A DNA stretch of 64,000 bases from Paludibacter sp. 47-17 (lineage in GTDB: Bacteria > Bacteroidota > Bacteroidia > Bacteroidales > Paludibacteraceae). The position numbers were made by a program, and so were the translations under genes. Position 1 is the stretch's first letter. Every line of letters begins with the position of its first letter. Where the stretch lies: contig MKVT01000008.1 of NCBI GenBank assembly GCA_001898935.1, positions 372,001 through 436,000 of the forward strand, in the 5' to 3' direction. Shown here piece by piece: positions 17,484 through 50,764 of this stretch. The notes below the pieces were generated by a model that saw only the letters and a list, made by a program, of their open reading frames with translations, had not been told where the DNA came from and did no database searches.

Positions 17484-17493
17484 AAAGTATTTA

Positions 17494-27635: not shown

Positions 27636-27677
27636 TAAATAAAAATAGCAGATTGACGTCGCGACAATCTGCTATTT
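27636..27677 (-). terminator. Rho-independent terminator of the SusCD/fasciclin operon
   Basis: A perfect 13-base stem (27643-27655 with 27665-27677, AAATAGCAGATTG type) around a 9-base loop. On the minus strand it is followed by TTTTTATTT. It lies just after the SusD stop and separates the transport operon from the downstream enzyme operon. Confidence 0.9.
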
Positions 27678-27690
27678 GTTGAGTATCTTT

Positions 27691-29343
27691 TTACCGCTGG
27701 GGCAAATACCAGTTCTTTTTGTCCTTCAGCAGGGCCAGGTAGAAATTATAATCGGGATGTTTCTGCGCCACTTTGTGGGCCAGAAATCCCGGATCGTTGC
27801 GGTGTTCCGAGAAACGCATCAGGTCGTGGAAACGGTTACCTTCGAAAGCTGTTTCCATGGCCAGTTCATCTACAATATTATCCTCTACGAAAAGAATGGA
27901 ATCCTGCAAGGTTGCCAGTGTGAGCGGAAAAGCGAAACGGGTATTCACCTCCGAATTTCCGCTTCCGCGATTGTGCAATCCTACATTGGTGTTGAATTTA
28001 TCGTTGTCGAGCAGTCTGATGTATTCTTTAGCATCGGCAACTTCGGTAGCAGGAATACGCAGGTTGTTGGCCAAATTGGCCGGGTTGAGTCCGTATTTGA
28101 GAACTGCGAAAGCCAACCCCGGCTTGCCGGCCCGGTTGACCGCTTCGGCATAGCGAAGGTACAACAATCCGACGCGATACAGCTGTATGGTATTATTGAG
28201 GTATTTAAAAATCATGCGTTTAGGCTCTTCGTTGTCGGTGGTGCCGGTTCCGGTGATTGTCACTGACAGGATGGCGGCCTTTTCCCGTAAATCGCCCGAC
28301 GTATAAGTAGGGGCGCTGGAAGCCACGAATGCATAATTCTGTAAAGCATAGGTGTCGAGTAATCCATCGGTGGGGCCTAGCTGAAATTCCTGACACAGGG
28401 TGTATATACGGGACGTGTTTCCGGTGAATCCCGAACTGGATAATTGGATGACCGATATCAGCTCGTCGTTACCGATAGTCGAAAGAAAGGTATTCGACCA
28501 GGTATCGATGTAGCTTTTAAAGTTGGCATCCATCCATCTTACCGCTCGTGTACCCGTCACATACGATCCCTTATCCATGAGCCGGGCATACCAGGTAGCA
28601 GCCATTTCGTAATCGGCAACATTTTTGGTGCGGCTGGCCTTCCACAGGTACAAGTCGCCCAGGAGGAACATCGGTTCGATAAACAGGTATTTGCTTTCGA
28701 CCCCGAAGAGGGTACCGTAACTGGGTTTCGGAACATTGACCAAGGGGACGAGCTGAGCGATAAGGGTATCGATCATTTGTTCCTGAGTGAACACCGGGTA
28801 GTCGTTGCGTGTTTCGGTAACCGAGATAATGGGCTTTTCGTAATACTTTGCCTGTCCGTAGTTGAGCACCAGTTGGAAGTAGGTCCATGCCCGGATGGCT
28901 TTAGCCGCCGCCACTTCCTTCACAAAGGGCTTTGAAGCCATCGATACGAGGTTGGTGTCGGCTTTTGCAATCAGGTAATTACAGTTGTTGATTACCCCGT
29001 AGTAATCTTTCACATCGGCAAATTCGCTGGTCGCTTTGTCGATCGTAAAGCTGTTCAATTCGCGCAGGAAACTCTCCGATACAGGGGTTACGTTCAGCAG
29101 ATCGGCACGCAGCTCGCCGGTTAGTACATAACGGTCGCTTAATTGCTGTACCTTTGTTAGAATTCCGATCAGGGTGTATACCGAGTCGTTGGCCGTACCC
29201 AGGGTATGGTCGTCGTCGGACATATACCGGTCGGATTGGGTGAACAGTATATCGTCGCAGGAGGTGAAGCCGGCCGATAATCCCGCGATGAGCAGGAATA
29301 AAAGGGTGAATTTACGTATCATAATGGTTGTCGTTTTCATCAT
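27691..29343 (-). CDS. SusD/RagB-family glycan-binding lipoprotein
   Basis: A 550-residue surface lipoprotein that would cap its SusC partner and capture oligosaccharides. The N-terminus has a hydrophobic stretch and the lipobox SAGFTSC, so it is lipidated at Cys29. The SusD fold is shown by the helical repeat region (AIRAWTYFQLVLNYGQAKYYEKPI, about 140-165) and the C-terminal block EGNRFHDLMRF (about 505-515). Its start codon overlaps the SusC stop by one base (TAATG), which implies translational coupling. Last gene of the seven-gene operon, followed by a strong terminator. Ligand unknown; the neighbours point to host glycans. Confidence 0.94.
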   Translation of the reverse strand: MMKTTTIMIRKFTLLFLLIAGLSAGFTSCDDILFTQSDRYMSDDDHTLGTANDSVYTLIGILTKVQQLSDRYVLTGELRADLLNVTPVSESFLRELNSFTIDKATSEFADVKDYYGVINNCNYLIAKADTNLVSMASKPFVKEVAAAKAIRAWTYFQLVLNYGQAKYYEKPIISVTETRNDYPVFTQEQMIDTLIAQLVPLVNVPKPSYGTLFGVESKYLFIEPMFLLGDLYLWKASRTKNVADYEMAATWYARLMDKGSYVTGTRAVRWMDANFKSYIDTWSNTFLSTIGNDELISVIQLSSSGFTGNTSRIYTLCQEFQLGPTDGLLDTYALQNYAFVASSAPTYTSGDLREKAAILSVTITGTGTTDNEEPKRMIFKYLNNTIQLYRVGLLYLRYAEAVNRAGKPGLAFAVLKYGLNPANLANNLRIPATEVADAKEYIRLLDNDKFNTNVGLHNRGSGNSEVNTRFAFPLTLATLQDSILFVEDNIVDELAMETAFEGNRFHDLMRFSEHRNDPGFLAHKVAQKHPDYNFYLALLKDKKNWYLPQR

Positions 29344-32300
29344 TAGAGATTAATTTTTACACCAGCAAAGAAACTCTGGCTTTGTGGCAGCAAGCCTGCA
29401 TCGACTCCCTGATAGAGGATGGAGTTGTTCATCGAGAATTCGGGATCCATGCCCAGGTAGTTGGTTAATGTAAACAGGTTGTTGGCGCTGGCCCATAGTG
29501 TAATCCCCTGCAGATAGGTGCTGTTGACCGGCAAATTGTACGACAATTCGACGGTACGCAACCGGAGGTACGAACCATCTTCGATCCAGCGATCGGAGAA
29601 ACGGTTGTTGCCTTTGGGATCACCGTATATCGAGCGTGGGATGCTTGTCACCTGTCCTTCGTTCACCCAGCGGTTGTTCATTGCCATGCTCTGATTGTAG
29701 AAGTTGCTTCCCGATTCGATCTGCGACCGCAGGTAATTATAGATATCGTTGCCATAGCTGTAGTTGAATACAACATTCAGCGAAAGTCGTTTGTATTTCA
29801 TGCCGGCGAAAGCCGATCCGTACAGATCGGGGTTGGAATTTCCAATTACTACTTTATCTTTTTCGTCGATAATGTTGTCGGGGTATACATCCACGAACCG
29901 CACGTCGCCTGCCTGAAACGGAGTGAGTGCTCCGGTTACTTCCTTCAGCGACAGGCCGGCAGCCTGTGCAGCTTCGGTAGTTTCAAACACTCCGTCGGTT
30001 TTGTATCCCCAGAATTGTCCGATCGGCTGACCGACGGCAGTCAGCACCTCGCCGCCATAAACCCGGGTGGTATAATCGCCATCGGCCAGGGCCAGTATTT
30101 TATTTTTATACGAACCCACCGATGCACCGAGCGAAAGTTGGAAATTACGGGTAAATACCGGTATGGTGTTGATAGCGACTTCATATCCGTTGTTCTGAAG
30201 TTTACCGTCGTTGGTCCAGTACTTGTCGAGGCCGGTAATCGGATCGAGGGTTTTTTCCACCAGCAGATTGTCGGTCGTGTTGTTGAAGAGGTCGAAGTTG
30301 ATCGTCACGCGATTACCGAATAAAGCCATATCCAGTCCGGCATTACGACGGGTAACCGTTTCCCATTGAATTTCGGGATTGCCGATGTTGTGGATTTGCA
30401 AACCGATTGCATTGTAGGAGTACATTACCGCGTTGAAATAGGTGCGTGATGCGGTGCTCTGAATTCCGTCGTTACCCGACTGGCCAATCCCGGCGCGTAG
30501 CTTCAGCAGATCGACAAAGGATATATTCTTCATGAACCGTTCGTTGCTCACCAGCCATGAAGCGTTGAGCGACGGGAAAATTCCCCAGTTGACACCCAGT
30601 ACTTTTATGCCCGATACTGTTTCCGTTCCAAAAAGAGACGTCGATTCGGCCGATACGCCTGCTTCGACAAAGAACTTTTCGCGGAGCGAGTAAGTGGCCT
30701 GAGCGTAATAATTGATCGATTTGTAAGGTTCGTCGAATCCACCTACCTGTTTGTAGGAAAGCCCCGACGACATTTCTTTTACCTGGTCGCTACCGGTATT
30801 GTGTCCCGAAGCATGATCGGCTTTGTAGGAGTTGAACATGAAGCGCATACCTCCGACTACATCCAGGCGATTTCCCCCGGTTGCTTTCGAGTAAGCTAAA
30901 CGGGTGTCGCTGAACAGCGACGATTGATTCGCAAATTGAGTTTTAACATGGTTGCGCGAGATCATTCCGAGTTGCAAATTGTAATAGGGCGCCACTCCGT
31001 ACATGGGAACGAACGAATTTTCGGCCAGGTTGGTCAACGAATAACTAAACATCGAACGGATATTCAGGTGTTTGGTAAGTTGATATTCGGGAATAATCGA
31101 TAAGTTAAAATTAGTTTGCAGCGACTTGCCGACTCCGTAGGCCAGGATAGCGTGCGGATTGGCAATGTTCAGGAAGTCGTAATCCTCCAGTTTCGAGGTT
31201 ATATCGCCGGCATTCGAGTACTGATACGGAGAAAGGAAAGGCGATTTGATGAGCGACAGATACCCCGGTGAGTTGATCTGGCTGAGGTAGGACTCGGCAA
31301 TCCCGTCGTTGCGCAGTTTCCGGTCGGTTTGTGCGTACGAAATATCGAATACCGTTTTGAAATGATCGGTAAAGGTGATATCCGAGTTAAAACGGGCATT
31401 CAGCCGGTTGAAATTGTTGCTGGCCAGGGTACTGTATCCCTGTGTGAATCCGATGGAGAGGTTGTACAAGGCGATTTCGTCGCCGCCATTCACGCCCACA
31501 CTATAGCTTTGCGTGGTACCGTTTTGGTAAACGCCGTCCGACCAATCGGTCTGGTTGTGGTATTTTTTGTAATACACGAAGTTAGGGTCGTCGCGCAGGA
31601 AAAACTTGTCTCTCAGCAGTACTTGTGCCCGTTCGTCTTTCACCAGGTCGCTCAGGTACACCCGGTATTGCCCGTCGTTCATCATAGGGGGGAGGGTCGG
31701 GCGCAGCGAGGTACCTATCGTAGCAGTTGCCGTAATCTTTGTAGCCATGCTTTTTCCCCGCTTAGTGGTGATAAGTACGACCCCATTTCCTGCCTTGCTT
31801 CCATAGATGGAAGTTCCGTCTTTCAGCACGGTGATACTTTCGATATCGTTTACATCGATAACCGAAAGGGGCGAAATCACATTGCCCAGGTGGATCGAAG
31901 CCTGATTGTTCTGGTTTTCGAAGATCACGCCATCCACCACATACAGAGGCTGGGTGTTGGCATTCAGCGAATTCACGCCTCTGATCAGCATGTTGGATCC
32001 GCTGGCAATAGTACCGGAGTGGGTGAGAAGCCGTATGTCGCCGGCCAATTGTTTTTGCATTTCGACGTCGATCGAGAGCGACGAAAGGTTATCGACTCTG
32101 GCCGTCTTCTGAGCATTGACGATTGCCGCCGACCGTTTTTCACCGAATACGGTATGGGCAGCTGCAAAATAATTAGCGTAAACGGCCGGGTACAGACGAA
32201 TATTCTTTTCTTTTTCACCTTCATATACCGCCAGTTCGATTCCCTGATAATCGGGCGCCGAAACCTGAAGTACACGATGAAATTTAGGCAGTCCTATTGT

Positions 32301-32546
32301 AAAGCGTCCCTGTTCGTCGGTCATTGCCGTATAGGCGGGATTGAGTGCCTGAATACTTGCGCCGGGGAGGATTTTTCCGGTAACGGCATCAACAACAGTT
32401 CCCCGGATGGAGTCGACTGCTACCGGTGAGCCGGTACGTGCAAGCGTTTGCTGTGCCGCTGCCGAAAGGGTCGTGCCCAGTGCTAGTACTACTAGTAACC
32501 ATTTATACGAATGCATAGTGCCTGTTTTTTTTAATGAGTCCTTCAT
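29343..32546 (-). CDS. SusC/RagA-family TonB-dependent outer-membrane transporter
   Basis: A 1067-residue TonB-dependent importer. Signal peptide at about 11-32; the start may be ATG 32516 (MHSYKW) instead of 32546. A carboxypeptidase-D regulatory-like domain (about 46-120, GTVVDAVTGKILPGASI) precedes the plug (about 150-270) with MLIRGVNSLN, PLYVVDGV and the SusC signature SITVLKDGTSIYGSKAGNGVVLITTKRG. The rest is the 22-strand barrel, ending FFAGVKINL. It lacks an N-terminal STN signalling domain, so it should transport without signalling to an anti-sigma factor. Coupled to its SusD by a one-base overlap; preceded 6 bases upstream by a fasciclin lipoprotein. Confidence 0.95.
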   Translation of the reverse strand: MKDSLKKTGTMHSYKWLLVVLALGTTLSAAAQQTLARTGSPVAVDSIRGTVVDAVTGKILPGASIQALNPAYTAMTDEQGRFTIGLPKFHRVLQVSAPDYQGIELAVYEGEKEKNIRLYPAVYANYFAAAHTVFGEKRSAAIVNAQKTARVDNLSSLSIDVEMQKQLAGDIRLLTHSGTIASGSNMLIRGVNSLNANTQPLYVVDGVIFENQNNQASIHLGNVISPLSVIDVNDIESITVLKDGTSIYGSKAGNGVVLITTKRGKSMATKITATATIGTSLRPTLPPMMNDGQYRVYLSDLVKDERAQVLLRDKFFLRDDPNFVYYKKYHNQTDWSDGVYQNGTTQSYSVGVNGGDEIALYNLSIGFTQGYSTLASNNFNRLNARFNSDITFTDHFKTVFDISYAQTDRKLRNDGIAESYLSQINSPGYLSLIKSPFLSPYQYSNAGDITSKLEDYDFLNIANPHAILAYGVGKSLQTNFNLSIIPEYQLTKHLNIRSMFSYSLTNLAENSFVPMYGVAPYYNLQLGMISRNHVKTQFANQSSLFSDTRLAYSKATGGNRLDVVGGMRFMFNSYKADHASGHNTGSDQVKEMSSGLSYKQVGGFDEPYKSINYYAQATYSLREKFFVEAGVSAESTSLFGTETVSGIKVLGVNWGIFPSLNASWLVSNERFMKNISFVDLLKLRAGIGQSGNDGIQSTASRTYFNAVMYSYNAIGLQIHNIGNPEIQWETVTRRNAGLDMALFGNRVTINFDLFNNTTDNLLVEKTLDPITGLDKYWTNDGKLQNNGYEVAINTIPVFTRNFQLSLGASVGSYKNKILALADGDYTTRVYGGEVLTAVGQPIGQFWGYKTDGVFETTEAAQAAGLSLKEVTGALTPFQAGDVRFVDVYPDNIIDEKDKVVIGNSNPDLYGSAFAGMKYKRLSLNVVFNYSYGNDIYNYLRSQIESGSNFYNQSMAMNNRWVNEGQVTSIPRSIYGDPKGNNRFSDRWIEDGSYLRLRTVELSYNLPVNSTYLQGITLWASANNLFTLTNYLGMDPEFSMNNSILYQGVDAGLLPQSQSFFAGVKINL

Positions 32547-32552
32547 ATCTTC

Positions 32553-34112
32553 TTATCGTGCCGGTTCTAAAATTATACAATCAATTAAAAGTTCCCGGGT
32601 ATACTGAGTGGTCTGATTTTGAGCTACATTGCTGTTGATCTTCAGTTTTACCACCGTTTTGTCGAGTCCGTAACTGCTGTAAGGGAATACAAAATCCGAC
32701 GTTACCAGTATTTTGCTGATCGAGTCGGGGCTGGTAACGAATCCCTGGTTATTGTTGTTGTAGGTTCGGCTGGTGGTGGCTCCGTTTTCACCGGCAAAGT
32801 AAAGCTGGAAAGTTACTTTCGAGGCTTTGGGATTGGCAACGGCATTACCTTTTGCTGCGGGAGGTACAAATACTGCATACACATTGTACGGGCTGCCCGA
32901 TAAGGTGTTCGGGATTTCGAACGTGATATTGGGGTTTACGGCCGAAGTGGTGGGGGTAAGTTCGATAAACCGTTCGTTCGACACCCCTTCGACCGGGCTG
33001 CCGGTTGAGCTTCGGGTATACAGGTTCGACAATACGAATTCGCGACCGTTCATTTGTTCGGCCTCTACTACAATTGGTTGATTCCACGATTCCCAATGCT
33101 TGTGTTTCAATTCATCAACGATAAATACCTTGCCGTTGCTGGCCAGCACTTCGGTTGCGCCGTCGAATAAATAAGCGGGTTGATAGAAGGTGTTTCTACC
33201 GGTCGAAATCAGGGAGTCCTGTGGCGAAGCTTGTCCGTTGGCGCTGAATACGATATCCTGTAACATGGCCCTGATGGTGTTTTTACGTTGCAGGGTGTCG
33301 GCCGTGTATTTTTCCTCGGCTGTTTTTGAATAGTACCGGAAATAATTCTTCACGGTGCTGTACGATTTGATCCAGGCTGCGTTGGTAGGAGCCAGGATAT
33401 GATAAGTACTGTCTTCCACATTTAATTTTCCCAGCAGGCGGAACATCTGGTTGTCGTTGTAGGTCACCGAATCGAGGTACACGGTTTTGCCTTCTTCGTT
33501 TACATCGCCGGGGATACTGCGCAATTCGTCGAATATTATTTTATTGAACGAATACAGATAGGTGCTCAGCGAATCGAGCCGGGGGTCTTTTTCGAGGTAT
33601 TCCCAGATATTGCTGAAGAAGGGCAATTGGCTTCCCACTGTGTGAAGTATCCCGTTTCTGGCCATCGTATTGAACTGTTTTACGGTAGTCGATCCGAATG
33701 TAAATCCACTGCCTTCCGATTTAAATACGATCGATTTTGAATTTAATAAGGTGACGCGGATTTGCATTCCGGGCGAAGCTGTGTAGCTGTAGCGCGAAAC
33801 GTGGTTTTCTACAAATTCTTTGGTCAGCCCGGCATTGTCGAGGTCGAGCGACGCCAGTGCGGCATCGTCGGGAGCCCAGACGGTATACATTTGCGAAGCG
33901 TTCAGTATTTTATCGTAGCCGGTTTTTTCCAGAGCCGCTGTGAATTTGCTCAGAGTTGGTTGCTGCCTGATGATTTCCCAAAGCGTCAGTTCCGACACCT
34001 GCTCTTTGTTAATACTGTAGTGGTCGTTCCATACCTCACTTTCGCAAGCGCTCAACAAGAGACCGGTGAGGAGTATTGTCAGGAAAAACCCTGTTTTTTT
34101 CATGCTCTTCAT
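32553..34112 (-). CDS. Fasciclin (FAS1)-domain surface lipoprotein
   Basis: A 519-residue lipoprotein; the lipobox LLSAC puts the lipidated Cys at 23. Two FAS1-like domains are visible: about 38-165 (core YTVWAPDDAALASL, later NGILHTV) and about 175-330 (HILAPTNAAW, later GKVFIVDEL). The C-terminal 170 residues look like a beta-sandwich (VVEAEQMNGREFVL ... LLIDCIILEPAR). FAS1 domains are adhesion or binding modules; within Sus-type operons such lipoproteins take the place of surface glycan-binding proteins, but the ligand is unknown. It sits between two SusCD sets, 25 bases after the next fasciclin gene and 6 bases before a SusC. Confidence 0.88.
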   Translation of the reverse strand: MKSMKKTGFFLTILLTGLLLSACESEVWNDHYSINKEQVSELTLWEIIRQQPTLSKFTAALEKTGYDKILNASQMYTVWAPDDAALASLDLDNAGLTKEFVENHVSRYSYTASPGMQIRVTLLNSKSIVFKSEGSGFTFGSTTVKQFNTMARNGILHTVGSQLPFFSNIWEYLEKDPRLDSLSTYLYSFNKIIFDELRSIPGDVNEEGKTVYLDSVTYNDNQMFRLLGKLNVEDSTYHILAPTNAAWIKSYSTVKNYFRYYSKTAEEKYTADTLQRKNTIRAMLQDIVFSANGQASPQDSLISTGRNTFYQPAYLFDGATEVLASNGKVFIVDELKHKHWESWNQPIVVEAEQMNGREFVLSNLYTRSSTGSPVEGVSNERFIELTPTTSAVNPNITFEIPNTLSGSPYNVYAVFVPPAAKGNAVANPKASKVTFQLYFAGENGATTSRTYNNNNQGFVTSPDSISKILVTSDFVFPYSSYGLDKTVVKLKINSNVAQNQTTQYTRELLIDCIILEPAR

Positions 34113-34137
34113 ATTTGAATTTTTGTTGCTTTAATCG

Positions 34138-35994
34138 TTAATCTCTTGTTTCAGGTTCTCCGTCGGTACGGTTATATACCGATTTTGGTACCAGTTCGAA
34201 ATAGTCCATCATCATTTGCGATTTCGGATTTTCGAGTACCGATTTGAACCGTACCCATACTTCCTGGTATTCGGTGAAGGTAAACGTGCCGATGATCCGT
34301 CGGAATGAGCGGTTGGTATTGCGGGCTATCGTATTGCCGTATTCCATTTTGAAACTGGTCGGGCCTTTCATATAACCGCGGTTACGCATGGTTTTGTCGT
34401 TTTCGAATCCACTATCATCCGTGTTATTGTCGTTCACCCATCCGATACGTGGGTCGTCGGCCATAATACGTAAGTCGAGCGGAATGCCTACGGGTTTGTT
34501 ATCGACATAAATCTGGGTAACACTACGCCACTGATTGGCCGAAACGGCAAACCGCAATTCATAGGTTCCGGGCGGTACCGGAATGAGCCGCATATTGATG
34601 TCGTACGACCCCAGTCCCATCAACTCGTCGCCCTGGTAATTGATCCAGGAAGTTTCTTTAGCGCCGCTGAGGTAAAGCAACCGCGTATCTTTACTGGCTT
34701 TAAGGTATTTGAAATAGCCTTCGGGGAATCCCCACCGGTCGTTGGTACTGTTGCTGTAGCCCCGTATGCTGTTGTTGGCCAGTTCGGGGAAAAGCGCCGC
34801 CAGGTCGAAGCGTATGCGGGTGTTCATGAGTGTTTCTTCCACATTGGGCGAATACACCAGGATGTTCTGAAGCAGGTGATAAATACCGTTGGTAGTGGTT
34901 TTATTGTCCTGATTGGACACTACCACTTCCCGGTCGGTTCCGGGATTGATGGTGATTCCTGTGGGGCCGGCCTGGGTAATCTTCATGATACGGTACGGAT
35001 ACATGCTTTCGACGAACTCGTAAAGTTCGGCATTAGGCACCATGTTTTTCTTATAGAAGAACTGGTAGATTGCTTTTTCGACCAGGTGGTACGAAATAAA
35101 CTTATTCAGACTATTGTTGCGATGGGTGAAATCGTTGTCGTAGGCCGACGAGCCCGGGTACCAGACTTTGGCCCGCTCGATTAAATCCTGCACGTTATTG
35201 ATTCCATTGGCCTGGAATACAGCATTGGTTTCCACCAAGGCGGTATAGCCGAACTTGCGGAACTCGGGACTGTTGATTACATAACCGTCGTACTCGTCTT
35301 TATAGGTCTTTACAGGTACATAACTTTTATCTTCGACCAGTCGCAGCGAATCGGCCATGCCGGTAAGTTTCAGCGCCTCCGAAAAGATCGAGAGATCAGG
35401 ATTTGAGGCAATGAGTTCGGGGAGTTGTGCCGTCGACGGTTTCAGTACCCGGTTGATGCCGTGAATAACCCCATTGTACACTTCAATATCCTTGTACAAC
35501 AGGCGTGCATCGTTGTTGAATAAAATTACCATCGTGTTGCGAATGGAGTCGATGTCGAATTTAACCTCGATATACCGTTGGTTCATATTGGTATTCGGTA
35601 TCACTCCATCCTGAAGTGTTTCGGTAAGGTACTTGGGCGCAACGATATGCGTTTTTGCAAGGTAGTCGATTTGCTCCTGGGTAAGATCCTCGAATTTGAT
35701 GTTGGGACCCAGCGACCGGTAATAGGCCTCAAATGCTTCATTGGTCGGTGCCAGGCAGGTGTATGAGCCGTAGGCGCTGAGCATTCCTTTCAGCCCGGCT
35801 TTATCAATTACTTTGATGTATTCGCCAAATGTATCGGGCCGTTGTTCGAGATAGGAATAAATCATATCACCGGTAAAAGTGACATAGCTTTCACCAATAT
35901 CTTCCACGCAAGCTACTCCGGTGAAAGCCAACAGGAGCAGGATGCCTGTTTTTTTCAGGAAGGATAAGCGAAGGGAATTCAACATTGTTTTCAT
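34138..35994 (-). CDS. Fasciclin (FAS1)-domain surface lipoprotein
   Basis: A 618-residue lipoprotein with lipobox TGVAC (Cys29). The first FAS1 domain (about 40-190) is well formed: YTCLAPTNEAFEAYY and later YNGVIHGINRVLKP. A second, more divergent one covers about 195-390 (NGIYHLLQNILVY). The C-terminal third resembles a jelly-roll sandwich (MRLIPVPPGTYELRFAVS). It is the middle of three fasciclin lipoproteins in this operon and follows a SusD gene after 72 bases. A role as an accessory glycan-binding or docking protein on the cell surface is inferred from position; no enzyme motif is present. Confidence 0.86.
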   Translation of the reverse strand: MKTMLNSLRLSFLKKTGILLLLAFTGVACVEDIGESYVTFTGDMIYSYLEQRPDTFGEYIKVIDKAGLKGMLSAYGSYTCLAPTNEAFEAYYRSLGPNIKFEDLTQEQIDYLAKTHIVAPKYLTETLQDGVIPNTNMNQRYIEVKFDIDSIRNTMVILFNNDARLLYKDIEVYNGVIHGINRVLKPSTAQLPELIASNPDLSIFSEALKLTGMADSLRLVEDKSYVPVKTYKDEYDGYVINSPEFRKFGYTALVETNAVFQANGINNVQDLIERAKVWYPGSSAYDNDFTHRNNSLNKFISYHLVEKAIYQFFYKKNMVPNAELYEFVESMYPYRIMKITQAGPTGITINPGTDREVVVSNQDNKTTTNGIYHLLQNILVYSPNVEETLMNTRIRFDLAALFPELANNSIRGYSNSTNDRWGFPEGYFKYLKASKDTRLLYLSGAKETSWINYQGDELMGLGSYDINMRLIPVPPGTYELRFAVSANQWRSVTQIYVDNKPVGIPLDLRIMADDPRIGWVNDNNTDDSGFENDKTMRNRGYMKGPTSFKMEYGNTIARNTNRSFRRIIGTFTFTEYQEVWVRFKSVLENPKSQMMMDYFELVPKSVYNRTDGEPETRD

Positions 35995-36066
35995 TGGTCA
36001 ATACGTATTTTGTGTTGCTGAAGCCTGCCGTACGATCGATCGGAGCAGCTCTCAGCGACGTTGTTG

Positions 36067-37599
36067 TTAATTATATTGTTTAGTGGTATAGAAGGGGTTC
36101 TGAACCAGCTTTTTATTCGCCTTTAATTCATTTTCGTTAATAGGCATATACATCGAGTTCAAATCCTTGAGCTTTGTTTTGATCACACTCTGATTTTCGG
36201 TGTATTTCCGGAGCACCAGTTCCAGCAATCGGTCGGTATTTCCTTCGCGGCGTGCCAGACGAACCAGGTCGAACCAGCGTTTTCCCTCGAACATGAGTTC
36301 TCGTTGCCGTTCAGCGAGCACCAGGTCCTCCATGGCCCGTTTGGTGTTGTAGGTCTCAAAGTCCAGGGTGTCGTTGAGCAGTGTGGGGTTGGAGCGCATG
36401 TACGTAGTGTTTACCAGTTGGAGCGCCGACCGCAGGTCCTGTTCCGAACGGTTGAGTTGCACCAGTGCTTCTGCTTTCATGAGCATGACATCGGTGAGGC
36501 GGTATATGATCCAGTTGGGCGTAGTGTAGCGGTACAAATAGGTACTTACCCCCGTATTGTTTTCGAAACGGTAGTCGATGGCATATTTGGTAATGTAATA
36601 CAGTCCGTTTACAGGCTGATCTCTTATAAAATCCTTGCGACGGACATCGGTGGTTTCGAACAGGGTATTCGTGTTGCAAAAGAGCTGCGGTACGCTTAAG
36701 ATTCCCTCCGGTTCGTCGCGGCTGCCGTACAAATCCGGAATATTTTCGTTGATTTTAAACGACTCGCCGAACTGTAATTCAAAGATACTTTCAGTTGAAT
36801 TCTTCCGGCTGAAGATTTGCATGTACGGAGTTTCGTCGGCTTCGATCAGTTTGAAAGCAGGGCTTTCGATGATCTTATCGCAATACGTAACGGTTTGATT
36901 GTACTTGTTGCGCCATAAGTACACATCGGCCAATAACGCGCGTACGGCATTTTTGGTGATCCGGCCTTTGGTGTGTGCGATAGAGCTGAAACTGGTCATG
37001 GCCCATTCCTCGGCTTTCAGCAGGTCCGACTCGATCTGGTCGAGTACGGTATTCTCGGAGCTTTGGGGCACGGAATAGTCCTGCTGGTCGGTTACCGAAG
37101 GTTCGAGGATGAGGGGGATGTCCTTATAGGTACGTACCAGATAGAAATAGGTTAATGCCCGTAAGGCGAGTGCTTCGGCCATTTTGGCGCGCATTTTCGC
37201 TTCCGTAAAGTTAGGGTCGATCACCTTAGGGGTGTAGTAAAGTACTGCATTGCAATAATTGATCACCGTGTAAAACTGCGACCAGCTCGAATACCAGTTG
37301 GCCGGAGTGATGTTGGCTTCGAGAATCCGTTTTTCAGTTTCTTTGATCCCGTTACCTGCCACGATATTGTCGGAGCGCATTTCGCCCCAGATGATCAATC
37401 GGCGTATGTATTCGTAATCAATCATCGAACGGTAGCAGGTGGCGATCACGGCTTCCACGTCCGATTCGGTATTCCAGTAATCGCCGAGTACAATTTTTCC
37501 TTCGGGTTCAATGGTCAGCCAGTCGCTGCAAGCGCTCAGCAAAGTAATACCCGCAATCAGCATCAGTTGTTTGAATGTATGTCTTTTCATTGTTGTCAT
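36067..37599 (-). CDS. SusD/RagB-family glycan-binding lipoprotein
   Basis: A 510-residue SusD homologue. Lipobox ITLLSAC puts the lipidated Cys at 24. Family blocks: SDWLTIEPEGKIV after the Cys, a central ALALRALTYFYLVRTYKDIPLI (about 145-165), a tetratricopeptide-like helical core and the C-terminal ERQRELMFEGKRWFDLVRL (about 440-460), which is very typical of SusD. It starts 11 bases after its SusC stop. It would form the lid over that SusC. Ligand not readable from sequence. Confidence 0.95.
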   Translation of the reverse strand: MTTMKRHTFKQLMLIAGITLLSACSDWLTIEPEGKIVLGDYWNTESDVEAVIATCYRSMIDYEYIRRLIIWGEMRSDNIVAGNGIKETEKRILEANITPANWYSSWSQFYTVINYCNAVLYYTPKVIDPNFTEAKMRAKMAEALALRALTYFYLVRTYKDIPLILEPSVTDQQDYSVPQSSENTVLDQIESDLLKAEEWAMTSFSSIAHTKGRITKNAVRALLADVYLWRNKYNQTVTYCDKIIESPAFKLIEADETPYMQIFSRKNSTESIFELQFGESFKINENIPDLYGSRDEPEGILSVPQLFCNTNTLFETTDVRRKDFIRDQPVNGLYYITKYAIDYRFENNTGVSTYLYRYTTPNWIIYRLTDVMLMKAEALVQLNRSEQDLRSALQLVNTTYMRSNPTLLNDTLDFETYNTKRAMEDLVLAERQRELMFEGKRWFDLVRLARREGNTDRLLELVLRKYTENQSVIKTKLKDLNSMYMPINENELKANKKLVQNPFYTTKQYN

Positions 37600-37610
37600 T
37601 ATTTCATGAA

Positions 37611-40600
37611 TTAAAATGCAACCGATAAACCGGCAGTAAACGATTTGGAACGCGGTGTCTGGTTGCCGTCGTAGCTCACTCCGAATGTTCCGTAGCCCAC
37701 CTCGGGATCGACGCCCGAATATCGGGTAAAGGTCATCAGGTTGTTGATGGTGAGGTACAAGGTTGCCTGGTTTATTTTCATGGGTTTGAGGTGTTTGGAC
37801 GGAACGCCGTAATTTACCTGTATGTTTTTAACGCGGAGGAAAGAAGCGTTTTCAACAAAACGGTCGCTGCCCAGCCAGTTGTAGCCCGACTGATGAAGGG
37901 CGCGCGGCATATGGGTCAGGTCGCCGTCCTTGCGCCATCTCCAGTTAACCGATGCCGCCTGGTTGTTGTTGCCATACATGTTTTCGGCATACATCCGGCC
38001 CATGTTTACCACCTCGTTGCCGATACGGAAGTTCGAGAAAATGTTGACCGATAGGGTTTTGTAATTGAACTTGAAACTGATACCGCCGTTCATCAGGGGG
38101 TTCGAGTTACCTAAGTACACGATGTCGAGTTCGTTGATATTGCCGTCGTGGTTGATATCTTCGTAAATGGCATCGCCTCCTTTGAATTTATATTCGGAGT
38201 TGGTGCCTGCCGAGAAGGTCATGCGCACCGGTTCGCCTTTCGCATCGCGGATCACCTGGCCGTCGGCATCGCGGGCAAACGGGCTGGTCCCCGGGCGGCC
38301 CTCTTCGTACTGCGAGTATTGATATACTCCTTTGTAACGGAAGCCGTAGATCGATCCGTAGGAGTTGTTTTCCTGCAAACGGGTCAGGTACTGTCCGTTC
38401 CGGATGTTGAAATCGACCGTATTGTAGCGTGCCAGGATCGCATCGTCGATATCCAGGATTTTATTCACGTAATTGGAGAAGTTCAGGGTGACATCCATCC
38501 AGAAGTCGCCGGCCTTTATCAGTTTGTATCCTTGCAGGTTAAGCTCCCAGCCGCGGTTGTCCATCGACCCTACGTTCTGGTAGTTTAATACCGAATAACC
38601 GGCCGACGACGGGATGGTAAGTCCGCCCCACAACATATCGTCGGTGCGTTTGTAGTAAAAGTTGAAGTCCATCATAAAACGGTCGTCGAAGAATCCCAGG
38701 TCGAGACCGTAGTTGAACGACGAAACTTTTTCCCAGCGCAGGTCGGTGAGCTGGATGTTTTCGGGACGGATCGCCGGTAAGTCCATGTAATTGCCGAACG
38801 ACGAATAGAGGCTGTAGAAGAGGTATTCGGACTTGGGAGGGTTGCCGGTTATCCCCCAGCTGGGGCGGAAACGCATGGTGCTCAGCCAGTTTGTCGAGAA
38901 TTCCATGAAATCTTCGTCAATAATGTTCCAGGCGAACGATACGCCCGGGAAAGTTCCCCATTTACGGTTGTCGCCAAACTTGGTACTCCCGTCGCGGCGA
39001 ACGGTAATATCGGCTATGTATTTCGATTTATAAGCATAGTGTCCGAGCATCATGTAGGCCATCCAGCGTCCCTGGCCCGGTCCGGTCGAGAAATCCTTTA
39101 TATATCCTCCGGCCGTGGATCCGGTGATGGTTCCGCTGGGTGTGCCGTACGAGCTGATAAACTGCGAGCGCGAATTGCTGGTTCCGAACTGAAACGAGCT
39201 GTAAAGCATCAGCGAATGATCTTCGTTGGTGAACTTTGGCGTCCAGGTGAGGTTGTGATCCGACGAAACGGACAAGCTGCGCGAGTCGGCAGTGCTCGAC
39301 TGGTTGATGTCCTCCTGAAGCCAGTTGGATGTCGACAGTTCCTTGGGAAGGAAGGTGAAGGTGTTTCCGTTGTTAACGTCGAACGAAACATATCCCCGGT
39401 ACCGGAGCATCTGCTCCTGCGGATCGAGCAGGTCGTACTGGAGGCGGAAGGTAGGCAGGATACGGGTCGATTTGTACTCGTTGATGGCCAGACGGGCCGA
39501 TGCTACCGGGTTTCGCATGTCTTTCTGGTCGGCCAGCTGATTGGAGGCCGATGTAAGTATTTTATAATACCGGTCGGTATTGTTGCCGTCGGCATCCTGG
39601 GCATAAATACTCAGGTTGGGCATTTTGCGGTAGGCGATCGGCAGCAGGGCGTCGTAGTTGCGATTGTTGTCGGTATGGGTAAACGAGAACTCGGTCGAGA
39701 AACGGATACGGTCCGACACATTGTAATCGAGGTTCATACGGGTCGAGAAACGTTCGACCTGCTGGCCGATTACCGATCCCGTCTGGTTCAGATATCCTCC
39801 CGAGATCATAAAACGGGCCTTTTCGCCGCCTCCCGAGAGCTGAACGTAATGGTCGTGGGTTTGACCGTACTGAGTAACGGCTTTCACCCAATTCGTATTG
39901 TTGTTGTAGTTTTCGTATTCCGAGAACGAAGGGTCGTAGTTGAATTCGCGGATATTGGAGGCCGTATTGCTCTGGCGGGGATTGAAATAAGCTTCTTTCA
40001 TCAACATGGTATAATCGTCGCCGGTGAGCATCGTATATCCTTGAGGTTGTATGGCGCCGCTATAGCGGTAGGTATATTGAACACGGGTTTTTCCCCGGAT
40101 TCCTTTTTTAGTATTGATGGAGATAACCCCGTTGGCTCCCCGCGACCCCCACATCGCCGTTGAAGCGGCGTCTTTCAGTACGGTAATCGATTCGATATCG
40201 TCGACGTTGATACTCAACAGGTCGGCAAATTGCTCCTGGTTGGCGGTGGCGAATTCGAAAGTAGAGGCCTGAGGCGTGTCGTAAATAACGCCGTTGAGTA
40301 CGATCAGCGGTTCGGAGCTGTTGTTGATGGAAGTGATACCGCGGATACGCATCGACGATCCGCTCCCTACGTCGCCCGAATTGGCAATGATATCGAGACC
40401 GGCGATTTTTCCCTGGAGGGCATCGTCGACCGAAGCAACCGAAAGTCCTTCGAATTCCTTGGACGAAATGGTTTGCATCGCCATGGATCGTTCGCGTTCG
40501 GGAATCGTAAGGGTACCGGTATTCACCGTACGGTTTGCGCGTACGGTCACCTCGCTGATGGTGGTGGCATCTTCGAGCACTATATTGAAGTAGGTGCGGC

Positions 40601-40886
40601 TTCCGATCGTTAAAAGCTGGGTTTTCATTCCTACGTATGAAACCTGGAGTTTATTGGATGTGTTTTTCACTTTCAGTGCAAAGTTCCCGTTGATATCGGT
40701 AACGGTCGTCGAAATATAACGTTTGTTCTGGTCTACCTCGACAACGTGAACCGACATCAGAGGACCGTCAATCTTTGAGGAGACGATACCCCGGATGATG
40801 TTTGAACCTGCATCCTGTGCTGAAATGCTGAATGTGCCGGCCAGAAGTATGAACAGGAAAATAAGCGTTTTTACCAGTTTATTCAT
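37611..40886 (-). CDS. SusC/RagA-family TonB-dependent outer-membrane transporter
   Basis: A 1091-residue importer with signal peptide 1-23 (ends SISAQ). A carboxypeptidase-D regulatory-like domain (about 30-115) is followed by the plug (about 125-265) with MRIRGITSINN, PLIVLNGV and SITVLKDAASTAMWGSRGANGVISI; the remainder is the barrel, ending KSFTAGLSVAF. As in the other SusC of this operon there is no STN domain, so it is not expected to signal. Together with the downstream SusD (11-base gap) it forms one of two transport pairs in a single transcript. The fasciclin lipoprotein upstream ends 3 bases before this start. Confidence 0.95.
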   Translation of the reverse strand: MNKLVKTLIFLFILLAGTFSISAQDAGSNIIRGIVSSKIDGPLMSVHVVEVDQNKRYISTTVTDINGNFALKVKNTSNKLQVSYVGMKTQLLTIGSRTYFNIVLEDATTISEVTVRANRTVNTGTLTIPERERSMAMQTISSKEFEGLSVASVDDALQGKIAGLDIIANSGDVGSGSSMRIRGITSINNSSEPLIVLNGVIYDTPQASTFEFATANQEQFADLLSINVDDIESITVLKDAASTAMWGSRGANGVISINTKKGIRGKTRVQYTYRYSGAIQPQGYTMLTGDDYTMLMKEAYFNPRQSNTASNIREFNYDPSFSEYENYNNNTNWVKAVTQYGQTHDHYVQLSGGGEKARFMISGGYLNQTGSVIGQQVERFSTRMNLDYNVSDRIRFSTEFSFTHTDNNRNYDALLPIAYRKMPNLSIYAQDADGNNTDRYYKILTSASNQLADQKDMRNPVASARLAINEYKSTRILPTFRLQYDLLDPQEQMLRYRGYVSFDVNNGNTFTFLPKELSTSNWLQEDINQSSTADSRSLSVSSDHNLTWTPKFTNEDHSLMLYSSFQFGTSNSRSQFISSYGTPSGTITGSTAGGYIKDFSTGPGQGRWMAYMMLGHYAYKSKYIADITVRRDGSTKFGDNRKWGTFPGVSFAWNIIDEDFMEFSTNWLSTMRFRPSWGITGNPPKSEYLFYSLYSSFGNYMDLPAIRPENIQLTDLRWEKVSSFNYGLDLGFFDDRFMMDFNFYYKRTDDMLWGGLTIPSSAGYSVLNYQNVGSMDNRGWELNLQGYKLIKAGDFWMDVTLNFSNYVNKILDIDDAILARYNTVDFNIRNGQYLTRLQENNSYGSIYGFRYKGVYQYSQYEEGRPGTSPFARDADGQVIRDAKGEPVRMTFSAGTNSEYKFKGGDAIYEDINHDGNINELDIVYLGNSNPLMNGGISFKFNYKTLSVNIFSNFRIGNEVVNMGRMYAENMYGNNNQAASVNWRWRKDGDLTHMPRALHQSGYNWLGSDRFVENASFLRVKNIQVNYGVPSKHLKPMKINQATLYLTINNLMTFTRYSGVDPEVGYGTFGVSYDGNQTPRSKSFTAGLSVAF

Positions 40887-40889
40887 ATC

Positions 40890-43487
40890 TCAATTTTTTA
40901 ACTGATCTTTGGTATATAATAAAACTTTGTTTATTTGATGGATCACGGCATACGACGAAGTTTCAATCTGCGTGGCACGCTGCGGATCGCCATTGTTGAA
41001 TTTGTATTCCCTTGCCATTATGTTGTAAAGTCCCGGCTTCATGGTTACCTGAACGGCAGTCGATGCATCGTCGGGATTGGAATAGATGGTCATGCCGGAC
41101 GGAGTTACTTTGGTGTATAATTTATAGTAGCTCTTGTTGACATCGGTTTTATTATAGGCCGCTGTTTCGTACCGGTTGAGGGCACTGGTGCTGCCATCGA
41201 TAAACACCGAATTATCCTGGAAGTGGTAACGAAGGAAATTGACCAGCTTTTCGGTCATCGCGGTTTTGCGGTCCTGGTCGCCTTCCGCTTTAATCATGTC
41301 CCAGGTAGGCAATCCGTTGGCTATAGCTTCGAGTACGGCTTCGTTGGTAGGCACATATACCGAATAATGGTAGGTGTTGAAAAATTTCACGTTCAAATCG
41401 ATTCCTGCGTAGGACTTGTCTTTTACAAAGATGTCGTACAGTTTCGATTCGGCTTCGGTAGCTTCGTCGTTACCTTGCAGCAGTTTGAAAAATTCGCTGA
41501 ATTCGGGGGTTTCGGAAAGGATTTTAAATACCGATTTAAAAGGGGTCTGCACGGGCGATGTCAACACGTAGGTTTTCCCGTTTCCGCGTCCGTTGGTAGC
41601 TTTTGTCTGATCGTATATCTTGGAAACTGCAGGCGCTATGCCTGTCTCCAGGTTTCCGCCTCCTTGAATTTTCATGCCGACGCCACTTCCGGTGATTTTC
41701 ACGAATCCGCCGTTCTTGGTTTGGTAGAAAGCCCGGCCTCCTTCAATATTCCCCACAATAATATGGTTGTCGATTATATCGTCGAGGCGGTCGCGGATTT
41801 CGGCAGGAGTTACCGGCCGGATCGAGTCGCCGACTTCGCCGGTAAGCGGGTCGTATTTATAAGCGGTAGCTCTCACGCGGTCGGCAACAGAGGTTGCACG
41901 CCCGTTCCACCAGAATTTAAAAACTTCGGGTTGTACTTTTGCCAGTGAAACCGGGTCGATGTACATCATCCCTTTGTTGACGATCGAGTCGTATCCTTCG
42001 GTGCGGTCGGTGGGTACCATAAAGCTGTAGTAACTATCCATCGATAGCAGGTAGGCATTGTACTGCAGCAGATCGACACCCCAGTTGAAGATTTTCATTT
42101 GTTCATTTACCAGCGCGGGCGCCGTTACAGCCACGAACGAAGCAGGGGCATATACCTTGTTGGTAACGAAAATAACACCATTGTTGGCCACATACGATTT
42201 CACCACATCGCCTTTGGAGATTCCCATCGGTTCTTTTCCGTCGTCGAGAATCTCGGGGAAGCGGCGGGGGATTGATCCCAGGAAAGTCGACTTCATGTGA
42301 TTGCGCAGCAGATCGTCGATGCGGTCGGTGGGGATGTTTTCTATCGATCCGTACCGTTCGATGAGGAATTTACCTCCTCCCTCGTAGAAAAATTTACGTA
42401 AAATATTGTCTTCGGGTACGAACATGGTTCCCATGTCGATGTCCATCGTCGTGGTATTATTCATCCGGTAGTTGTTCCATCCCGGGTCGAATTCGAGGTA
42501 TCCCGACTGGCCTATACCTTTCGGGCTGGTCAGGTTGGAGCCGCTGGCGGTACCGCTTCGTTCGGCATAGTAGCGTTTAACGAAGATGGAGTCGTTGAAT
42601 TCGGGATTCAGCAGGCGGTACTGCATGGTCGCGCTACCGTCGTAGAAAGGAGCGGCGAAACGTTCGAGCATGCTGCTGAAGATGGTGGTCTCGGGAGCCT
42701 TGCGGATTACCTCGGCCATGTTGGAAGGAGGGATCAGTACATTCTCCAATATATTAATGTATCCGTTTTTGCAGGTGATATCGCGTACGACCACCCGGTT
42801 TCCGAAAATATGTGCATCGTTTTTCCGGCGTGTAAACCCGTTGAAGATTACCGAAAGATCGTCGTCGGTGATGCCGGCGTAATCGAGCTGCTTCTGTAGA
42901 AAGTGAATCATCGGCACGGGCGTATTGTCCTTCAGCAGCCTGATTCCTTTATCGCGGTAGAAGTCCCAGACGGGTTCGGCAGGAAGGTCGCTTCCTTTTT
43001 CCATGGGAATGGAGTCGAGTATCGATAAAGCGGTGGGACGCCGAATGGCCAGTCCTTCGACCGGACCTTCGGTGCTCGACATGAGTTCGATAAGGTAGGC
43101 GTTGTTGATCATCGACGAATTAAGGATCAGCCGTTTCTGGGCCATCGATAATTCTTCGTACGATTTTACACCCCAGGCATTCGATTGGAAGAAGCGTTCG
43201 AAAGCAGTGTCGTCGCTCACGAACAGGGTCTTGCTTCCCGTACGCTCCAATACTTCCCGATAACCAATGTCCTCGATTAATTTAATGTACACCGTAAAAG
43301 AGTATTTTTTACCCTCGCTGTCGGTATAGCCTTCCACGAGTTGATCGTAAATGCTTTCTCCTAGCCACGATGGTTTGTTGACCTCAAAGAAATCGTCGCG
43401 GCAAGAGCTCAGCATGGCTGAAATCACAACCAGATACAACAGGATGCCGTATCGGGTTGCCTTAAAGTTGGATAACTTGTGTTTCAT
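40890..43487 (-). CDS. Large multi-fasciclin surface lipoprotein, first gene of the double SusCD operon
   Basis: An 865-residue lipoprotein. I start at ATG 43487 (MKHKLSNFKATRYG...), since this gives an SPII signal with lipobox AMLSSC; the ATG at 43550 adds 21 residues that do not fit. Several FAS1-like repeats can be seen: one near the N-terminus (TLFVSDDTAFERFF), a second around residue 190-280 (NGYINILENVLIP), a third (NNGVIFVTNKVYAP) and a C-terminal one (YSVYVPTNEAVLEAI). No catalytic motif. It probably extends far from the surface and binds polymer or partner proteins. It is the promoter-proximal gene of the operon, 3 bases ahead of SusC and divergent from the ECF sigma gene. Confidence 0.86.
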   Translation of the reverse strand: MKHKLSNFKATRYGILLYLVVISAMLSSCRDDFFEVNKPSWLGESIYDQLVEGYTDSEGKKYSFTVYIKLIEDIGYREVLERTGSKTLFVSDDTAFERFFQSNAWGVKSYEELSMAQKRLILNSSMINNAYLIELMSSTEGPVEGLAIRRPTALSILDSIPMEKGSDLPAEPVWDFYRDKGIRLLKDNTPVPMIHFLQKQLDYAGITDDDLSVIFNGFTRRKNDAHIFGNRVVVRDITCKNGYINILENVLIPPSNMAEVIRKAPETTIFSSMLERFAAPFYDGSATMQYRLLNPEFNDSIFVKRYYAERSGTASGSNLTSPKGIGQSGYLEFDPGWNNYRMNNTTTMDIDMGTMFVPEDNILRKFFYEGGGKFLIERYGSIENIPTDRIDDLLRNHMKSTFLGSIPRRFPEILDDGKEPMGISKGDVVKSYVANNGVIFVTNKVYAPASFVAVTAPALVNEQMKIFNWGVDLLQYNAYLLSMDSYYSFMVPTDRTEGYDSIVNKGMMYIDPVSLAKVQPEVFKFWWNGRATSVADRVRATAYKYDPLTGEVGDSIRPVTPAEIRDRLDDIIDNHIIVGNIEGGRAFYQTKNGGFVKITGSGVGMKIQGGGNLETGIAPAVSKIYDQTKATNGRGNGKTYVLTSPVQTPFKSVFKILSETPEFSEFFKLLQGNDEATEAESKLYDIFVKDKSYAGIDLNVKFFNTYHYSVYVPTNEAVLEAIANGLPTWDMIKAEGDQDRKTAMTEKLVNFLRYHFQDNSVFIDGSTSALNRYETAAYNKTDVNKSYYKLYTKVTPSGMTIYSNPDDASTAVQVTMKPGLYNIMAREYKFNNGDPQRATQIETSSYAVIHQINKVLLYTKDQLKN

Positions 43488-43751: not shown

Positions 43752-43782
43752 CAAAATTAAAATAATTTACTGTAATAGCAAA
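43752..43782 (-). promoter_or_regulatory. Promoter of the double SusCD/fasciclin operon
   Basis: On the minus strand TTTG (43779-43782) and TAATTTTG (43752-43759) are separated by 19 bases, a full match to the Bacteroidetes consensus. The ATG is about 265 bases away, which predicts a long leader containing an inverted repeat. Confidence 0.6.
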
Positions 43783-43842: not shown

Positions 43843-43850
43843 TATCTTTG
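43843..43850 (+). promoter_or_regulatory. Candidate -7 box of the ECF sigma operon
   Basis: TATCTTTG matches TAnnTTTG but ends only 12 bases before the sigma ATG at 43863, so the leader would be extremely short. The nearest TTTG (43815-43818) is 24 bases upstream, longer than the ideal spacing. Confidence 0.4.
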
Positions 43851-43862
43851 CGCCGGTTTTGT

Positions 43863-44456
43863 ATGAGTGTAACAGACGAAGCATTGATAGCTCAGCTCCG
43901 GCAGGGCGAGGAAAAGGCCTGGCGGCAGTTGTATGCGCAACATTACGAAGTGTTGTGCAGGGTAGCCTACGCCTTTCTGAACGACCGGCATTTATCGGAA
44001 GCGCTCGTGAATCAGCTCATTGCCGATAGTTGGGAAAAGCGGGAAACCTTATTGTTTGGCGGTACGCTGCGGTCGTACCTGGTACGGGCGGTACGCAACC
44101 GCTGCATTAATTACCTGCAGCTGGAGCAGGTTCGGAAAGAACGGCGGTTGTCGGAGTATGAATCGCTGGTGAGCGAAGCAGTAAGCGATGTCTATCCCAC
44201 GGCAGAGCTGTTGGGCCGGGAGTTGGAAGCGCTCATCGGGCAATCGATCGGCAAACTGGCGCCCGAATGCCGGAGGGTTTTTGAGCTGAGTCGTTTCGGC
44301 GAATTATCGCATGCCGAAATTTCCGGCCATCTGAATATTTCTGTAAATACGGTTAAGTATCATATTAAGAATGCCTTATCGCGTTTGCGGGAGGACCTTT
44401 CCGATTATATTTCCTTGTTGATCCTGTTTTTTTTGTCGATCCGGCTACCCCTTTAG
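43863..44456 (+). CDS. ECF RNA polymerase sigma factor (RpoE-like, PUL regulator)
   Basis: A 197-residue sigma-70 family factor of the extracytoplasmic-function type. I use ATG 43863 (MSVTDEALIAQL), as the in-frame TTG at 43848 lies within the -7 box. Region 2 is about residues 10-80 (AWRQLYAQHYEVLCRVAYAF; SYLVRAVRNRCINYL) and region 4 about 120-180 (LAPECRRVFELSRFGELSHAEISGHLNISVNTVKYHIKNAL, a helix-turn-helix). The C-terminal tail is hydrophobic (YISLLILFFLSI), as often in this Bacteroidetes group. It is followed by FecR and an STN-SusC, the standard trans-envelope relay. It would direct transcription of its own operon and perhaps of the divergent one. Confidence 0.94.
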   Translation: MSVTDEALIAQLRQGEEKAWRQLYAQHYEVLCRVAYAFLNDRHLSEALVNQLIADSWEKRETLLFGGTLRSYLVRAVRNRCINYLQLEQVRKERRLSEYESLVSEAVSDVYPTAELLGRELEALIGQSIGKLAPECRRVFELSRFGELSHAEISGHLNISVNTVKYHIKNALSRLREDLSDYISLLILFFLSIRLPL

Positions 44457-44495
44457 GCTTTGCAACTGTATAGTATAGTGTAAAGCAATACATCC

Positions 44496-45509: not shown

Positions 45510-45520
45510 TTCTAATATTT

Positions 45521-49051: not shown

Positions 49052-49063
49052 TTCAATCGCTCT

Positions 49064-50737: not shown

Positions 50738-50764
50738 GTAACTATCAATCTAATATCAATTTTT

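Follow-up and report, generated by a model that had tools for sequence, protein, structure and literature searches.

Gene organization of the locus

The window analysed here, a 64,000-nucleotide stretch of the Paludibacter sp. 47-17 genome (contig MKVT01000008.1, positions 372,001 to 436,000), contains on its minus strand, from position 43487 to position 27691, a seven-gene operon encoding FAS1 (865 aa), SusC1, SusD1, FAS1 (618 aa), FAS1 (519 aa), SusC2, and SusD2 in this order, hereafter slots 1 to 7 (Table 1). Open reading frames (ORFs) and family profiles confirm the gene order proposed in a first-pass annotation made from the sequence alone, as well as the sizes of the three FAS1 proteins, all of which pass the PF02469 cut-off of 22 bits. 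Both SusCs exceed the curated cut-off (368 bits) of TIGR04056, the SusC/RagA TonB-dependent transporter family, and both SusDs exceed that of SusD_RagB (23.1 bits); against SusD-like_3, SusD2 scores 20.8 bits, under the cut-off of 27. As the first-pass annotation stated, there is no enzyme in the operon, i.e. none of the enzyme families in Pfam and NCBIfam was found in the seven gene products at the thresholds used; SusC2 gave one sub-cut-off oxidoreductase match (16 bits).

The seven genes are probably cotranscribed. The intergenic gaps are, in order, 3, 11, 72, 25, 6, and −1 bases; the range of 3–72 bases given previously holds for five of them, and SusC2 and SusD2 overlap by one base. The terminator, which had been called strong, is an intrinsic hairpin followed by a U-run, and none of 200 shuffles formed as good a structure. 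At the other end, a sequence matching TTTG-19-TAnnTTTG, which we take to be the Bacteroidetes promoter consensus, is present as claimed, but this pattern occurs in the window at about the frequency expected by chance (three times versus 1.55 expected; at least three times in 16 of 100 shuffles), and the site, weak when taken alone, was rejected as strong evidence. A sigma-70 scan of the window gave 14 sites versus 22.6 expected.

Table 1. Features of the seven-gene operon (positions in the window).
Feature	Position	Strand	Evidence
Promoter-like sequence of the Bacteroidetes type, TTTG-19-TAnnTTTG	43752..43782	-	Consensus match
Slot 1, 865-aa FAS1 lipoprotein	40890..43487	-	PF02469, 45.9 bits
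Slot 2, SusC1, 1091 aa (N-terminal extension, plug, and barrel; TonB box kept)	37611..40886	-	TIGR04056, 706 bits
TonB-box-like segment of SusC1, residues 111-118	40533..40556	-	Motif discovery, column conservation
Slot 3, SusD1, 510 aa	36067..37599	-	SusD_RagB, 89.2 bits; SusD-like_3, 73.9 bits; lipobox by eye
Slot 4, 618-aa lipoprotein, FAS1-FAS1-CBM-like (CBM, carbohydrate-binding module)	34138..35994	-	PF02469, 75.6 bits
Slot 4, FAS1 pair, residues 42-382	34849..35871	-
Slot 4, C-terminal CBM-like jelly roll, residues 391-604	34183..34824	-
Slot 5, 519-aa lipoprotein, FAS1-FAS1-CBM-like	32553..34112	-	PF02469, 51.4 bits
Slot 5, C-terminal CBM-like jelly roll, residues 343-519	32556..33086	-
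Slot 6, SusC2, 1067 aa (N-terminal extension, partial plug match, and barrel)	29343..32546	-	TIGR04056, 602 bits
Linker between N-terminal extension and plug of SusC2, residues 119-157 (expected TonB-box site, none recognisable)	32076..32192	-
Slot 7, SusD2, 550 aa	27691..29343	-	SusD_RagB, 34.9 bits; lipobox by eye; same slot in sister cassettes
Intrinsic terminator hairpin, then U-run	27643..27677	-	-18.1 kcal/mol, z -5.3

Sister copies in the same genome

A FAS1 search of the window's own genome yielded 20 matches at six places. The 4.18-Mb genome contains six complete seven-gene cassettes, namely the window copy and five sister copies (L021–L025), in which the order is identical and all 35 genes best-match their own slot; slot 7 of the L021 copy lies outside the L021 locus and was recovered in L107. 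Recurrence of the order at five other sites of this genome and in other genomes places it beyond chance and bears out the earlier proposal that the seven genes form one unit. The sister copies are diverged, with 23–42% identity to the slot 4 protein of the window. In terms of SusC1 plus SusC2 distance, L022 is nearest to cassettes of Chitinophaga, Salegentibacter, and other genomes, and L023 to those in genomes of another family. By the same measure, the cassette copies in this genome are old.

Distribution and conservation in Bacteroidota

Slot profiles, based on the six cassettes of this genome (five for slot 7), were used with three scans, in which all fetched loci were selected via SusC1 or slot 4. 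Scan 1 compared the SusC1 alignment with named genomes (best 80 of 589 related loci), scan 2 covered 295 genomes of the order to which the window belongs (40 regions fetched), and scan 3 was extended to 395 genomes sampled from the phylum. The exact seven-gene run was found in 50 of 68 SusC1-type loci (4 from the same genome, 26 from scan 1, and 20 from scan 2), a count that excludes the window itself and is partly non-independent, as the sets of scans 1 and 2 may share species. In ten of the remaining 18 loci, the cassette is interrupted by the end of the contig or of the locus (L021, L026, L034, L035, L036, L051, L054, L123, L128, and L140); the others comprise L027, with SusC2 split into two ORFs, four loci without slot 4, and three altered loci (L122, L124, and L155).

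In scan 1, 37 SusC1-type loci (L026–L061 and L098) score 1117–1671 bits against the SusC1 model; these comprise 26 full runs, 6 cut loci, the locus with the divided SusC2 ORF, and 4 loci without slot 4. No complete lone SusCD pair was found among the 37, L054 being too short to tell. The other 43 loci score at most 625 bits and contain no gene best-matching slot 1 or slot 5, while a SusD-type gene is present in 42, two pairs in a few, and weak slot-4 matches (23–46 bits) in five. In scan 2, for which up to 4–5 matches per genome were listed, 56 of the 295 genomes have a slot-4-like match (E ≤ 1e-15), with other FAS1 families counted in. A full-length SusC1-type gene is missing from 14 of the 40 fetched regions. 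Four of these (L131, L136, L139, and L144) contain cut pieces of the run, in five (L118, L120, L121, L126, and L147) slot 4 is displaced, and the last five (L150–L154) encode FAS1 proteins of other kinds without any SusCD match, for which reason a FAS1 protein alone was rejected as a marker of the cassette. In scan 3, a slot-4 match at E ≤ 1e-40 was obtained in 8 of the 395 genomes, including that of the window, and the seven-gene run is present in all eight regions from the other seven genomes, which lie outside the window's order.

Carriers of the full run include Paraprevotella clara, Prevotella, Bacteroides sp., a Muribaculaceae bacterium, Chitinophaga, a Chitinophagaceae bacterium, and Salegentibacter; in a Pedobacter locus the cassette is cut. 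The median intergenic gaps across cassettes are 14.5–23 bases. Tree distances of the slots, calculated for the window and 50 full loci, agree pairwise (Spearman 0.59–0.91), and the maximum reached in permutations (three slot pairs, 300 each) was 0.20. The seven slots are co-inherited as a unit.

Domain structure of the FAS1 lipoproteins

Four hand-cut segments of slot 1 (residues 25-260, 258-460, 455-645, and 640-865) match FAS1 domain 1 of slot 4 with hhalign probabilities of 99.5, 97.5, 94.5, and 98.4%, respectively, and the 865-aa protein thus looks like a chain of four FAS1 domains. Cys29 is invariant across 32 aligned sequences of slot 1 and 29 of slot 4. Structure prediction of single FAS1 proteins, which the first-pass annotation had recommended, was informative for slots 4 and 5: the models (for slot 4, AlphaFold2, pLDDT 86.1 and pTM 0.84) consist of a FAS1 pair, which matches known FAS1 folds and resembles the FAS1 tandems of TGFBI and periostin, followed by a jelly roll like that of carbohydrate-binding modules (CBM35/CBM4-type or xanthan-binding module). 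Of the 120 listed among 201 public relatives of slot 4, those that carry a name are called, for example, ‘hypothetical protein’, ‘fasciclin domain-containing protein’, or ‘uncharacterized surface protein with fasciclin (FAS1) repeats’.

Canonical surface glycan-binding proteins (SGBPs) of the SusE/SusF type are lipoproteins encoded by susCD that contain Ig-like spacers and end in a beta-sandwich of the glycan-binding type. The cassette lipoproteins are likewise encoded by susCD, and slots 4 and 5 likewise have beta-sandwich ends, but FAS1 pairs replace the Ig-like spacer domains. Neither Pfam nor NCBIfam assigned them to an SGBP family. The earlier suggestion that FAS1 proteins take the place of the usual SGBPs is plausible, given that two of the three end in a CBM-like jelly roll.

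Comparison of SusC1 and SusC2

The SusC1 and SusC2 proteins of the window and 50 full loci (51 each) were compared with 49 ordinary SusCs, i.e. 48 from fetched loci and the third SusC of the window. With the ordinary SusCs for comparison, SusC1 and SusC2 fall into two distinct clades (support 1.0 each), and a recent tandem duplication of one SusCD is therefore not favoured. As the two clades are weakly sisters (support 0.82), an old duplication is possible.

As outlined in passages of PMC7782687, the TonB box (VDEVVV) of the levan SusC follows the N-terminal extension (NTE), and its deletion or replacement by alanine causes growth defects like those of SusD loss. At this site, the ordinary SusCs examined here have highly conserved columns (E.90, V.73, V.88, and V.90, then G.94, Y.94, and G.98), and SusC1 shows an E-V-x-V motif (E.71, V.88, V.67, and A.65). 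In residues 119-158 of SusC2, no column is conserved beyond.47. A TonB-box profile built from the ordinary SusCs, which were themselves scored leave-one-out, reached the threshold of 8 bits in 48 of 49 ordinary SusCs, 13 of 51 SusC1s, and 1 of 51 SusC2s. Linker segments that beat their own shuffles (p < 0.05) were present in 49 of 49, 21 of 51, and 6 of 51, respectively.

Because this profile alone would misjudge SusC1, motif discovery was added. It yielded 23.6 bits for the ordinary SusCs (shuffles, 9.8–10.1), 16.6 bits for SusC1 (9.1–9.4), and 9.0–9.4 bits for SusC2 (8.1–9.3), such that the SusC2 linkers hardly share any motif. Between the signal peptide and the NTE, the only motif found was the end of the signal peptide. 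In the eight loci obtained later, a strict TonB-box motif is present in four SusC1s and in no SusC2. In the window, the Pfam Plug match starts at profile position 3 in SusC1 (3–107) and at position 38 of 107 in SusC2. SusC1 thus keeps its TonB box, whereas SusC2 has no shared recognisable TonB box over the 51 cassettes and seems to be without the usual power connection.

Neighbouring enzymes and likely glycans

The window locus encodes GH29, sialidase, GH95, GH20, GH2, GH85, and an M60 peptidase; its glycoside hydrolase (GH) family numbers were assigned from Pfam families and are in part presumptive. The copy in the window most likely serves host-type glycoprotein glycans. Among 33 selected proteins scanned from the flanks of the sister copies, those of L022 include a polysaccharide lyase (PL) of family PL11, a PL26-type lyase, and GH2, and those of L023 include GH88, PL11, and GH106; by established family roles, these are sets for rhamnogalacturonan-I (RG-I). 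The flank of L021 contains GH88, a GH catalytic-core protein, DUF2264, and an S46 peptidase; that of L024, an alginate-lyase-family protein; and that of L025, GH51, lectin-like proteins, and an M49 peptidase. In Chitinophaga, the copy L049, which is among the nearest relatives of L022, adjoins a rhamnose symporter and a class II aldolase/short-chain dehydrogenase fusion, and other copies adjoin GH51, GH43, GH5, GH88, sulfatase, or esterases.

No conserved enzyme partner was seen among flanking genes chosen at other loci, no family being present in more than 4 of the 62 counted (66 were chosen; two each of L120 and L126 were left out). The cassette is not confined to host-glycan loci, in view of the sister copies in RG-I loci. 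Because the flanking enzymes differ between copies, the cassette is a general unit tuned to different glycans and not a mucin device.

Possible function and alternative explanations

The operon is probably a copy of a conserved, self-contained seven-gene outer-membrane cassette for glycan uptake, a surface utilisome with two unequal SusCD halves. The seven proteins may form a complex in which the lipoproteins of slots 4 and 5 would catch the polymer with their jelly-roll ends, slot 1 would scaffold, space, or bridge, and enzymes from neighbouring genes would cut the polymer. SusC1D1 would import, powered by TonB, and SusC2D2, having apparently lost the usual TonB box, would probably be an unpowered partner, i.e. 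a docking, holding, or gating half, perhaps within a SusC1–SusC2 heterodimer. The glycan taken up would depend on the copy and its neighbouring enzymes, and in the case of L022 and L023 it may be RG-I. The seven-gene kit has remained intact in carriers as distant from each other as Paraprevotella, Chitinophaga, and Salegentibacter while the surrounding enzymes changed, and it therefore probably works as a single unit on large, complex glycans, RG-I and host glycoproteins among them. FAS1, usually called an adhesion domain, would thereby gain a likely role in nutrient capture.

Several observations weigh against this interpretation. Contact among the seven proteins is putative, and the agreement of the trees can be explained by physical linkage and common descent without any protein contact. 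Glycan binding by the jelly rolls is predicted from the fold alone, and the cassette does not have the surface enzymes that known utilisomes have. The gene order also varies: slot 4 is missing from L045, L048, L057, and L061; it precedes slot 1 in L124, where the locus ends after slot 5; and it is displaced in L118, L120, and L147, each time near a contig end, in L121 (an extra copy), and in L126 (alone). L122 has a gene without a slot-1 match ahead of SusC1 and a slot-1 gene after slot 7. As to SusC2, a divergent TonB box is conceivable, because six of the 51 linkers hold a segment better than shuffles, the motif score lies slightly above the shuffles rather than level with them, and some SusC2 clades show segments recognised by eye at the TonB-box site (DDVISILS and EPVTLPFG) that are possible remnants.

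A more specific form of the utilisome model can be offered tentatively, in which SusC2D2 is a TonB-independent pseudo-importer and SusC1 and SusC2 form a heterodimer held by the FAS1 proteins, one barrel being opened by TonB and the other acting as a fixed receptor, relay, or gate. Such a heterodimer, if real, would represent a new class of asymmetric outer-membrane importer that is Bacteroidota-wide and re-used for many glycans. The question raised is why so large an importer barrel has been retained without the usual form of powering.

It is rather unlikely, although still to be taken seriously, that the two SusCDs are ordinary, independent TonB-powered importers of different products, with the FAS1 proteins acting as separate SGBPs and the TonB box of SusC2 merely divergent. 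Polysaccharide utilization loci often hold several SusCD pairs, both SusCs lie far above the family cut-off, and TonB boxes tolerate change, SusC1 itself being low on the ordinary profile. However, the near absence of a shared motif in the SusC2 linkers, the late start of the Plug match in the SusC2 of the window, and the lack of complete lone pairs in scan 1 argue against two independent importers. The first-pass proposal that the two transporters take up different products is accordingly doubtful, as SusC2 may not be an independently powered importer.

An adhesion system, in which the FAS1 proteins would attach cells to plant material or mucin, with the SusCDs serving for FAS1 assembly or display and not for import, is improbable. 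The FAS1 tandems do resemble those of TGFBI and periostin, which are adhesion and matrix proteins (FAS1 review, as far as covered in the sections of PMC6032426 consulted), but the copies sit within polysaccharide lyase/glycosidase loci and, in Chitinophaga, beside sugar-catabolism genes, and SusC1 has kept its TonB box. Least probable of all is a mucin- or glycoprotein-specific receptor, the special feature that the first-pass annotation had proposed for the operon and which the host-glycoprotein enzymes around the window copy favour, since two sister copies lie among RG-I enzymes (PL11, PL26-type, GH106, and GH88) and others beside the rhamnose symporter and fusion gene of Chitinophaga or beside different glycosidases, sulfatase, or esterases; for the cassette class as a whole, a mucin-only receptor was rejected.

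Comparison with known systems

To our knowledge, known SusCD machines contain one SusCD type and few lipoproteins, and the RagAB oligopeptide importer contains no FAS1 proteins. RagAB (PDB 6sli) has the SusCD-family architecture and is matched by the profiles of both SusCs of the cassette, and the SusC homolog 8aa4 outscores it for both. The levan utilisome of Bacteroides thetaiotaomicron consists of two copies each of one SusC, SusD, GH, and SGBP, according to portions of PMC7618045 that also treat the dextran utilisome. As in these utilisomes, SusCD in the cassette is encoded together with candidate (predicted) surface glycan-binding lipoproteins, and SusC1 also has the NTE, plug, and TonB box. 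The cassette differs in containing two unlike SusCD pairs, one SusC without a recognisable TonB box, and, where the utilisomes have a single SGBP with Ig-like domains, three FAS1 lipoproteins; there is no surface GH among its seven genes, and the enzymes are encoded by genes outside it. TGFBI, periostin, and fasciclin I (PDB 7asg, 5yjg, and 1o70) share the FAS1 pair or quadruple with the cassette proteins, whereas the latter are bacterial lipoproteins encoded in a transport operon, with a CBM-like domain added in slots 4 and 5.

Among the papers listed in searches of the open-access literature, none was found to describe a SusCD operon with FAS1 proteins, which, with most subscription papers and databases of polysaccharide utilization loci outside the scope, is weak evidence of absence; no description of a FAS1-SusCD unit was found in the available portions of PMC6032426, PMC12611786, PMC7661554, and PMC10199937. 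The trypsin-binding locus of Paraprevotella clara (PMC9477747) was not taken to be the same locus, as its main text describes it as built around an Omp28-related protein; among the terms searched in that main text, which did not include ‘FAS1’, ‘fasciclin’ is absent and ‘susc’ occurs only within ‘susceptible’.

Variant loci and other genes in the window

The four cassettes without slot 4 have an enlarged SusD2 (694–816 aa; the median of 59 slot-7 ORFs, which include truncated ones, is 571), into which a domain may have moved. The solitary slot-4-type FAS1 protein of L126 is encoded at 9310-11328 (-). The extra slot-4 copy of L121 follows slot 7 of a cut run, and in L118, L120, and L147 the slot-4 type lies beside genes without a slot match. 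In L122, the gene without a slot match (854 aa; 879-3443, +) occupies the slot-1 site and the slot-1 gene (17003-19489, +) directly follows slot 7, to be explained either by a tandem cassette or by relocation of slot 1. L155 (1752-16379, +) is divergent and without slot 5; its second SusD is SusD1-like, and a sialidase-like gene follows.

In the window, an 827-aa DUF5013 and FIVAR protein (24991-27474, -) begins past the terminator of the cassette. On the plus strand, genes for an extracytoplasmic function (ECF) sigma factor, FecR, a SusC with an STN domain, a SusD, and a GH85 protein with a sorting tail of the type IX secretion system (43848-53851) constitute a signal-transducing SusCD unit that adjoins the cassette and is oriented divergently from it. 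Two long proteins of 688 and 522 aa encoded inside the glycan locus (12075-14141 and 54016-55584, both +) are without a Pfam match at E ≤ 0.001.

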